Below the pieces are notes generated by a model that made no database searches, had not been told where the DNA came from, and saw nothing but the letters and a program-made list of their open reading frames with translations. From assembly GCF_020616595.1 (NCBI RefSeq), contig NZ_CP085278.1, positions 1,116,001 through 1,180,000 of the forward strand: 64,000 bases of DNA, read 5' to 3'. The position numbers were made by a program, and so were the translations under genes. Of the stretch, positions 20,198 through 21,652 are shown piece after piece. The stretch's first letter is position 1; the number at the start of each line of letters is the position of its first letter. The DNA is from Lentilactobacillus laojiaonis (GTDB taxonomy: Bacteria; Bacillota; Bacilli; Lactobacillales; Lactobacillaceae).

Positions 20198-20667
20198 TTA
20201 AAAGCCCTCTTTCGATTAAAATTAACTATAAAAATCATCATCACAACCACTAAAGACTGTTCTACCTAAATTACTTACAATTTTATAACCGCAGTCGATC
20301 AATCTTAGTAGCTGCTGCCAACGTGAGTATTAAGTTTGTAACTTCAGAGCAGCCTAACCAATCTTTGGTAAGCTTCTTAAAAATACCCTTTCATAAACAT
20401 GTTAGTACTAATATGTGATCAAATCAAACTGAATTTAAGTATTTTCAGGGTTATCGGAGATAATTCTTACTGAAAATAGGATAATAAAAACTTTGATAAT
20501 TATTTTAATTTAAATGTTTTACTAAATTAAGCTTTAAAATCATAGATAAATCACTAAAAAACCTTAATTTAATCATAAATAAAGCGCTTTTATAACCAAA
20601 AAATTATTTCGTTATAGATTTTAGTAAAACGTATAACTTCATATAAAATTCATATTTTATTCCTTGA
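20198..20667. other. Long AT-rich stretch without a gene, with one large inverted repeat
   Basis: No reading frame with a start and ribosome binding site is present. At 20281-20380 the base composition is clearly more mixed than in the surroundings; on the minus strand an open frame of about 34 codons without start codon runs through it, which could be a gene remnant. At 20439-20479 an inverted repeat TATTTTCAG / CTGAAAATA encloses a second pair GTTATC / GATAAT, so the region can fold into a branched hairpin. The rest is AT-rich. Confidence 0.5.
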
Positions 20668-20696
20668 TTGACAACATTTATGGCTTATATTATTAA
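20668..20696 (+). promoter_or_regulatory. Promoter of the first C-rich RNA
   Basis: A consensus -35 TTGACA at 20668-20673 is followed after 17 bases by TATTAA at 20691-20696. An overlapping TATTAT lies at 20688. Transcription would start around 20700-20704, directly at the first hairpin. Confidence 0.65.
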
Positions 20697-20699
20697 ACA

Positions 20700-20832
20700 T
20701 AGTAATAAGTGATTATTACTTACCTCATATAAATAAATTAAATCCCCCTTTAATTTATTATTTTATATTCATATTCTTCCCCTAGAATAAAGTACTTAAA
20801 AGACTAGTCTCCCCCGACTAGTCTCTTTTTTT
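20700..20832 (+). ncRNA. Putative small RNA with three UCCCC-loop hairpins
   Basis: About 130 nt between a good promoter and an intrinsic terminator, with no coding potential. Four hairpins in a row can be drawn: 20701-20720 (AGTAATA / TATTACT), 20732-20759 (11 perfect pairs, loop UCCCCC), 20772-20789 (TATTCT / AGAATA, loop UCCCCU) and the terminator 20801-20824 (AGACTAGTC / GACTAGTCT, loop UCCCCC) followed by a T run. Three different stems present almost the same 6-base loop, so the loop is the conserved unit. C-rich loops of this type are used by Listeria LhrC and staphylococcal sRNAs to pair with Shine-Dalgarno sequences. A post-transcriptional repressor role is an inference. Confidence 0.7.
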
Positions 20833-20861
20833 ATCACAAAATCTTCATAAAAAATTCTAAT

Positions 20862-20886
20862 TTGCATTACCATTTTGTAATATAAT
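20862..20886 (+). promoter_or_regulatory. Promoter of the second C-rich RNA / cadD leader
   Basis: A consensus -10 TATAAT lies at 20881-20886. The best -35-like word, TTGCAT at 20862, is only 13 bases away, so the -35 assignment is uncertain. Confidence 0.45.
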
Positions 20887-20892
20887 CTTATA

Positions 20893-21018
20893 GTAGATAA
20901 ATTTTGGTTATGTAGAAGTACATATCATAATTTTCCCCCTACACAACGATTATTGTTGTTTATAAAACTTAATGTGTTTTATTAAAAAGAGTTCTCTCCC
21001 CCGAGAACTCTTTTTTTG
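20893..21018 (+). ncRNA. Second structured C-rich RNA, possibly the cadD leader
   Basis: About 125 nt. Hairpins: 20909-20924 (TATGTA / TACATA, loop GAAG), 20943-20959 (ACAAC / GTTGT), 20962-20982 (ATAAAAC / GTTTTAT) and the terminator 20986-21013 (11 pairs AAAGAGTTCTC / GAGAACTCTTT, loop UCCCCC) with a T run. An unpaired UUUUCCCCCU lies at 20931-20940. The terminator loop is identical to that of the RNA just upstream although the stems differ, which points to related function. The terminator ends about 40 bases before the cadD start, leaving no room for another promoter, so cadD is likely reached by readthrough. The RNA may be a free sRNA, an attenuator leader, or both. Confidence 0.6.
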
Positions 21019-21058
21019 TTGTACCATGGTAATAATTCAATATACCGAGGTGCCAATT

Positions 21059-21652
21059 TTGATTAATAATTTAATTACTGCCACTATTGCATTTCTAGCT
21101 ACCGACATTGATGACTTAGTAATTATGTTTACTTTTTATATGACTGCGAAAACCACCAATCCAAAAATCAAACAAAATCACCCCGTCCTAAAAATATTTA
21201 GTGGTGAATTAATTGCCTATCTAGTCATCTTATTACTTAGTGATGTAGCTAGTTACGGCTTACGGCTCTTTCCAAAAGCTTTTACCAATGGTCTAGGAGC
21301 CGTCCCTTTATTTATGGGAATTAAAATTTTATGGGATCTCCACGAGGAACACAATCATAAACGAAAAAGCACCGCTAAAAACATTGGTATTATTACCCTA
21401 CCATCCATTCTTTCAATCTGTTTAGCCGATGGTGGTGACAATCTGGGAGTATATATTCCCTTCTTTTCATCCCTATCCATGGAAGATCTATTAGGAATTA
21501 ATATTTACTTATTAGCCCTTATGGCCATTTGGTGTGTGGTAGGATTCTTACTATCTAAGTTAAATGGACTTAACAAAGTATTTCAAAAATACGGTTCTTT
21601 AATCACCGGAACTATCTTAATCATTTTAGGATTTATCTTGATCTTTAAATAA
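21059..21652 (+). CDS. cadD: CadD-family cadmium resistance transporter
   Basis: A 197-residue membrane protein. The TTG at 21059 is chosen because GAGGTG lies 7 bases upstream and because an earlier in-frame start would place the N-terminus inside the terminator hairpin. The family pattern is visible: FLATDIDDLVIMFTFY in the first membrane segment with its paired Asp, SICLADGGDNLGVYIPFF in the middle, and a final segment GTILIILGFILIF. CadD-type proteins give cadmium (and possibly other metal or amine) resistance in staphylococci; in lactobacilli the true substrate is untested. No cadC/cadX-type regulator is adjacent; the leader RNA upstream may be the control. Confidence 0.85.
   Translation: MINNLITATIAFLATDIDDLVIMFTFYMTAKTTNPKIKQNHPVLKIFSGELIAYLVILLLSDVASYGLRLFPKAFTNGLGAVPLFMGIKILWDLHEEHNHKRKSTAKNIGIITLPSILSICLADGGDNLGVYIPFFSSLSMEDLLGINIYLLALMAIWCVVGFLLSKLNGLNKVFQKYGSLITGTILIILGFILIFK

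Follow-up and report, generated by a model that had tools for sequence, protein, structure and literature searches.

The 64,000-nt window, by which we mean the whole stretch of Lentilactobacillus laojiaonis DNA that was analysed, is predicted to encode two adjacent, separately promoted and terminated small RNAs. These would act in trans, under the control of an OmpR-family regulator, as repressors that cover Shine-Dalgarno (SD) sequences and start codons in the manner of LhrC and the csRNAs, a reading to which we assign a probability of about 75%. Computation demonstrates the conservation and predicted structure of these RNAs, their arrangement in arrays, the repeats that accompany them and their anti-SD/anti-AUG complementarity.

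Unit 1, a predicted small RNA of ~130 nt, spans positions 20700–20832 of the plus strand, on which all parts of both units and the repeats before them lie. Its predicted fold comprises four hairpins: a 5' hairpin with the loop GUGA and no C run (20701–20720), which is also seen on comparison with orthologues; hairpin 1, an 11-bp stem with the loop UCCCCC (20732–20759, AATAAATTAAA[TCCCCC]TTTAATTTATT); hairpin 2, a 6-bp stem with the loop UCCCCU (20772–20789, TATTCT[TCCCCT]AGAATA), which like hairpin 1 is supported by homologue sequences in addition to the fold; and an intrinsic terminator recovered by terminator scans (20801–20832), the hairpin of which carries another UCCCCC loop (20801–20824, AGACTAGTC[TCCCCC]GACTAGTCT) and runs directly into a T run. 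The minimum free energy of the unit is −27.6 kcal/mol, compared with −10.2 ± 2.4 kcal/mol for shuffled sequences (z −7.2), and none of 200 shuffles equalled it. Scanning of 20200–21300 found two terminator-like sites where 0.1 would be expected. Our own terminator rule counts 30 terminator-like hairpins in the 64-kb window, and the two that have a CCCC loop are the terminators of units 1 and 2. The first-pass annotation had proposed three C-loop hairpins for unit 1, the last of them an intrinsic terminator, and all three were recovered at the place it had given; it had missed the 5' hairpin and the second RNA alongside.

Unit 2, just downstream, is predicted from its fold to extend from about 20893 to 21017, opening with the 5' element GUAGAUAA...UUCCCCCUAC and closing with an intrinsic terminator (20984–21017, from terminator scans) of the same kind as that of unit 1, GAGUUCUC UCCCCC GAGAACUC. 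Folding of 20890–21018 gave a z-score of −7.0, with UUUUCCCC exposed in the predicted structure. Similar 5' elements, GTAGATAAG...CCCCTACA, were found in L022–L024.

The first-pass annotation had named loops that vary as freely as the stems across homologues as a refuting result, and the comparison did not yield it. The loops stay C-rich, whereas the stems of the terminators and of the 5' hairpin change in sequence with their pairing kept, and five consensus pairs are maintained although both of their bases have changed. In four relatives (L018–L021) hairpin 1 contains five extra bases, which displace its stem, yet the loop retains CCCCC. Among 25 distinct predicted units (identical units were counted once, and the first unit of L009 is absent since the −10 rule found none), 324/327 of the C residues that belong to runs of at least three are predicted to be unpaired, compared with 135/353 of all other C residues. 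Terminators of 17 named loci have a CCCC loop in 26/29 cases within the array and in 3/32 elsewhere; by their position, on the same strand and just beyond the array limit, the three outside are further units. The stems had initially been described as unrelated in sequence. This is correct when the three hairpins are compared with each other and when terminator stems are compared between species, but the stems of hairpins 1 and 2 are well conserved in orthologues. The hairpin 2 stem is as conserved as its loop, and this is more than simple loop pairing requires.

The hairpin 2 block of unit 1, UUCAUAUUCUUCCCCU (20768–20783), is near-invariant and is the antisense of AGGGGAAGAAUAUGAA, that is, of an SD, 6 nt and an AUG (own minus-strand match at 20770–20783). 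Unit 2 carries CAUAUCAUAAUUUUCCCCCU (20921–20940), the antisense of AGGGGGAAAAUUAUG, again comprising an SD, 6 nt and an AUG (own minus-strand match G000:C1:1136921–1136940). The exact unit 1 block is present in 18/21 aligned rows; of the three deviating rows, two place CAU at 8 nt from the C run instead of 6, and the third reads CCTC in place of CCCC. CAU at SD–AUG spacing from the C run is found in all 21 rows, at 6 nt in 19 and at 8 nt in two. A search of the 24 genomes with RGGGGRRGRRTATG returned 27 matches, of which 24 were the antisense of the unit 1 block, compared with 4 for the control. When all 90 C runs of 45 distinct units were considered, CAT lay within 12 nt before 36 of them and TCA before 47, often as the same TCAT; the corresponding numbers for other triplets were 13 (ATC), 11 (CTA), 11 (ACT) and 7 (TAC). 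Since CAT precedes just 36/90 C runs, the anti-AUG belongs to one element per unit and not to each loop. This arrangement bears on whether the RNAs might instead be sponges or protein-binding RNAs, with repeated C-rich loops that titrate G-rich RNA or a C-binding protein. Such a role would be consistent with the recurrence of C loops within and between units, with the equal conservation of stem and loop in hairpin 2, and with the failure of two tested genes to emerge as conserved targets (below), but it creates no need for a CAU at SD–AUG spacing, which is kept in 21/21 rows and in unit 2, and we consider it unlikely.

In the search for candidate targets of the predicted repressors, the own genome was scanned for AGGGGGA upstream of ATG, which yielded 30 matches, and four relatives were scanned for AAGGGGGA. 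With frames under 40 aa dropped, and G014 sampled by nine stretches, this gave 95 candidate proteins (25 from the own genome, 25 from G006, 21 from G016, 16 from G001 and eight from G014). SDs with AAGGGGGA are common in the Lentilactobacillus genomes searched, so that complementarity to the loop alone proves little. Recurrences among the five genomes were few and loose, for example pyruvate oxidase and lipoate ligase. Pyruvate oxidase was rejected as a conserved target, GGGGG being present in the SD of 6/15 full-length orthologues (≥60% identity, other copies not counted), as was an NADH-oxidase-like gene, where it is present in 1/20 (a 21st locus is unreadable at its start). TTT often follows AGGGGGA, but it was also seen after AGGAGGA and was dropped as a target signal. 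The single lead is L364 (G000:C1:1076061–1076074, minus strand), where SD and AUG together are perfectly complementary to the hairpin 2 block over 14 nt; apart from the sRNA, no other site in the own genome has this match. NCBIfam TIGR00882 identifies the gene as an oligosaccharide MFS transporter, and this complementarity makes it a candidate target.

Relatives of the 411-base region were found in 24/24 Lentilactobacillus genomes, 0/13 others of the family and 2/23 others of the order; the order-level matches (L025, L026) are weak and without C-loop hairpins, and were rejected. Pattern scanning identified 17 stretches, 16 from Lentilactobacillus and one from a Lactobacillaceae MAG. The covariance model of unit 1 (R1, from alignment A1) was built from 21/28 units, seven identical, near-identical or duplicate ones being left out. 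It finds 24/24 genus genomes, which are the same genomes from which it was built, and 28/397 genomes across the family, four of them outside the genus. The match in G118 (L078, E 0.0017) has no C-loop hairpin and was taken as chance, while G080 has one C-loop terminator. The G080 element (L077 1502–1591, third genus) is single and sRNA-like, and gives a weak full-length match to Rfam FsrA; at E 0.022 and 29.7 bits, against a gathering score of 80, membership of that family was rejected.

Tandem C-loop arrays of another type are present in G333 and G387, members of a second Lactobacillaceae genus. The G333 unit consists of a GUAGAUGAG...CUCCCCCCUAUAAC element, a UAUAUUUA-AUCCCC-UAAAUAUA hairpin and a UCCCC terminator, and TTCACA-N5-TTCACA-like repeats stand before the units, as seen in one of the two second-genus members read. 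In the second-genus units read, no CAT lies within 12 nt before the C runs. The arrays at L080 (G333:C25, minus strand) and L079 (G387) have a GUAGAUGAG...CCCCCCUAUAAC 5' element. A 281-base G333 stretch, covering one whole unit and the preceding terminator, matches 35/36 genomes of this genus, a figure for sequence matches, the arrays having been read in two members only.

Lentilactobacillus arrays lie within loci of about 2–3 kb and are shared by at least three RNA types (by eye). Of the 24 genomes, 11 have three C-loop terminators in the locus, 10 have two and a single genome has one; the remaining two, both senioris-type, have none, and their terminator loop is not C-rich. The immediate neighbours in the window are an upstream ORF different from that of the relatives and, downstream, a CadD-like transporter (PF03596). 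The likely start of the CadD-like ORF lies about 40 bases beyond the end of unit 2, as might be expected of a cis-acting leader or attenuator of this gene. However, in the 14 named loci inspected, out of 17, a divergent upstream ORF of one kind recurs in each and the ORF on the downstream side changes from species to species (kinds judged by eye). This argues against a cis leader, and the units are multiplied, each with its own terminator. We therefore regard regulation in cis as highly improbable.

Upstream of unit 1 are four 6-bp direct repeats with 11-bp spacing (20638–20676; TTCATA, TTCATA, TTCCTT, ACAACA), which form a putative site for an OmpR-family response regulator and fit the pattern TTCAYA with one mismatch (G000:C1:1136638–1136663). 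They are followed by a putative −10-like TATATT (20686–20691), in the same relative place as the TATAGT/TATATA of orthologues. Orthologue units are preceded by TTCACA-N5-TTCACA-N5-TTCA, in which consecutive repeats begin 11 bp apart, and then a −10-like hexamer. Across the 24 genomes the TTCAYA repeat pattern gave 92 matches, some of them overlapping, with one mismatch allowed, compared with 16 for the reversed control; the scan located 11-bp repeats within the array in 20/24 genomes and none in the array of the other 4/24. An 11-bp repeat spacing is typical of OmpR-family regulators, and the TTCAYA repeats are probably a site of this type; they are unlike the CiaR box, which consists of TTTAAG repeats. 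The promoter originally suggested for unit 1, TTGACA-17-TATTAA, is there to the letter (20668–20673 and 20691–20696, 17-nt spacing), but this reading is probably inexact. Promoter-like matches in 20200–21300 are at chance level (seven found, 7.1 expected), with this pair not among them, and comparison with relatives favours the 11-bp repeats before TATATT, so that TTGACA straddles the repeats.

All of the repeats, T runs and exposed C loops belong to the plus strand, which makes it hard to credit that the minus strand is the functional one, with a tiny ORF preceded by the SD AGGGG, even given that the antisense of the block reads as SD–AUG and that many orthologues have a 7-codon frame (by eye). 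In the window this frame stops after four codons. Before unit 2, decayed 11-bp repeats (20844–20871; TTCATA, TTCTAA, ATTACC; by eye), unmatched by the TTCAYA pattern scan, are followed by a −10-like TATAAT (20881–20886, by eye). Their decay, the one mismatch in the unit 1 repeats and a genome of 1.24 Mb might be taken to indicate a relic without function in the own genome, but unit 1 has an intact structure, C loops and anti-initiation block, and relatives occur in 24/24 genomes, leaving this only a very slim chance.

As the predicted regulator of the RNAs, PhoP-like, ResD-like, LisR/ArlR-like and WalR proteins were considered as candidates; we take the ResD-like candidate site to be TTTGTGAAT. 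The own genome encodes four OmpR-type regulators (search at E 1e-8). YycF scores above its curated cut-off, and the other three fall below any cut-off, the nearest matches being PieR, VanR and ArlR (ArlR by solved structures), so that an ArlR-like regulator is encoded. A fifth group, which we take for PhoP, occurs in the three relatives scanned and is not among the regulators found in the own genome (1.24 Mb, assembly rated 88.8% complete). The TTCAYA repeat is absent within 300 nt upstream of all 25 response-regulator genes examined, and autoregulation therefore gives no clue to the regulator. In relatives, TTCAYA 11-bp repeats were also found near repeat-bearing surface-protein and Asp23/AmaP-like genes (L093, L112, L106, L107, L111, L116; gene labels by eye), which suggests an envelope-related regulon, and they lie near other genes as well.

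Neither unit matches a family in Rfam 15. At permissive Rfam thresholds every match in the window falls far below its gathering score, and four of the five are minus-strand matches; in nine loci the sole match to exceed gathering is a PyrR site that has no connection with the arrays. The LhrC model, RF00616, matches 37/395 genomes of the order, 34 of them in one family, presumably the Listeriaceae, together with three single marginal matches elsewhere. It has no match in the window, and none in the genus at E 0.01, where at least five members, the own genome included, are listed without a match under strict filters that lose weak matches. Because the Rfam LhrC model found nothing in the genus, the C-loop RNAs are, as judged by this model, not members of LhrC.

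LhrC is nevertheless the closest relative in function. Passages of two LhrC studies describe LhrC1-5 of Listeria as sRNAs of about 111 nt encoded in several, largely tandem copies, the induction of which requires the two-component system LisRK and the pairing of which with the SD was shown experimentally (PMC4132741, PMC5880928); loop A binds an SD region (PMC5880928). Several tandem sRNA genes are a shared trait, the window having two units, and LhrC stem-loop A, CATTCTTTCCCCTTTTTAGAATG (L131, L135, L138, L141), resembles hairpin 2, ATATTCT TCCCCT AGAATAT, through either homology or convergence. In contrast to LhrC, the three predicted C-rich single-stranded regions here are all in hairpin loops and none is in a linker, a C-less 5' hairpin precedes the C-loop hairpins, an anti-AUG is present, and the TTCAYA 11-bp repeats were not recognised (by eye) in LhrC promoters.

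The streptococcal csRNAs, which are controlled by CiaRH, have, according to sections of the report describing them, several siblings per genome under a two-component system and combine an anti-SD with an anti-AUG, CAU being found in 53/61 of them; the same sections state that no CiaH homologue was found in Lactobacillus (PMC3091779). The units here share the anti-SD and anti-AUG at initiation spacing, but the csRNA anti-initiation segment is in an unpaired linker between two stem-loops, whereas these units have four hairpins with the C runs in loops. RsaE/RoxS is single copy and differs in structure from the units, and gave no Rfam match in the window or the nine loci. Excerpts of PMC4409812 describe it as having, like the units, more than one C-rich region, with one pairing to an SD region, and place it under the control of ResD/SrrA. 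Literature searches, mostly outside subscription journals, found no report of these C-loop RNAs, and the term 'C-rich' is absent from the main texts of an L. casei sRNA catalogue (PMC8220740) and a lactococcal one (PMC13109727).

From these features we infer transcription of the RNAs, their regulator, their pairing in vivo and their targets, and propose the following mechanism. Units 1 and 2 would be local members of a Lentilactobacillus sRNA array, turned on when an OmpR-family response regulator binds the 11-bp-spaced TTCAYA repeats, as it probably does. Each RNA would keep C-rich segments open, mostly in hairpin loops, with an anti-start-codon CAU beside one of them at initiation distance, and would pair with the SD, and at best also with the start codon, of several mRNAs, thereby blocking ribosome binding. 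By analogy, this probably combines the csRNA principle with that of LhrC, in which C-rich loops are exposed. The multi-target repressor in the style of LhrC that the first-pass annotation envisaged fits the anatomy and gains from the array, the regulator-like repeats and the anti-SD/anti-AUG block, but neither of the two candidate targets examined proved to be conserved.

The wider proposition, to which we give slightly better than even odds, is that these belong to a large, undescribed group of response-regulator-controlled sRNA arrays of the Lactobacillaceae, with several anti-SD loops per RNA, one of them an anti-SD plus anti-AUG mimic, which arose in parallel to LhrC and the csRNAs as a general cluster of translation-initiation repressors. 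Our literature searches found little on trans-acting sRNAs of lactobacilli, and the arrays provide a set that spans the genus and is easy to test, in which the active loops and the control are predicted and stem swaps occur as natural variants. If the proposition is true, similar two-component-driven, multi-copy anti-SD RNAs would exist in three bacterial families, and it could be asked why such RNAs come in sets.
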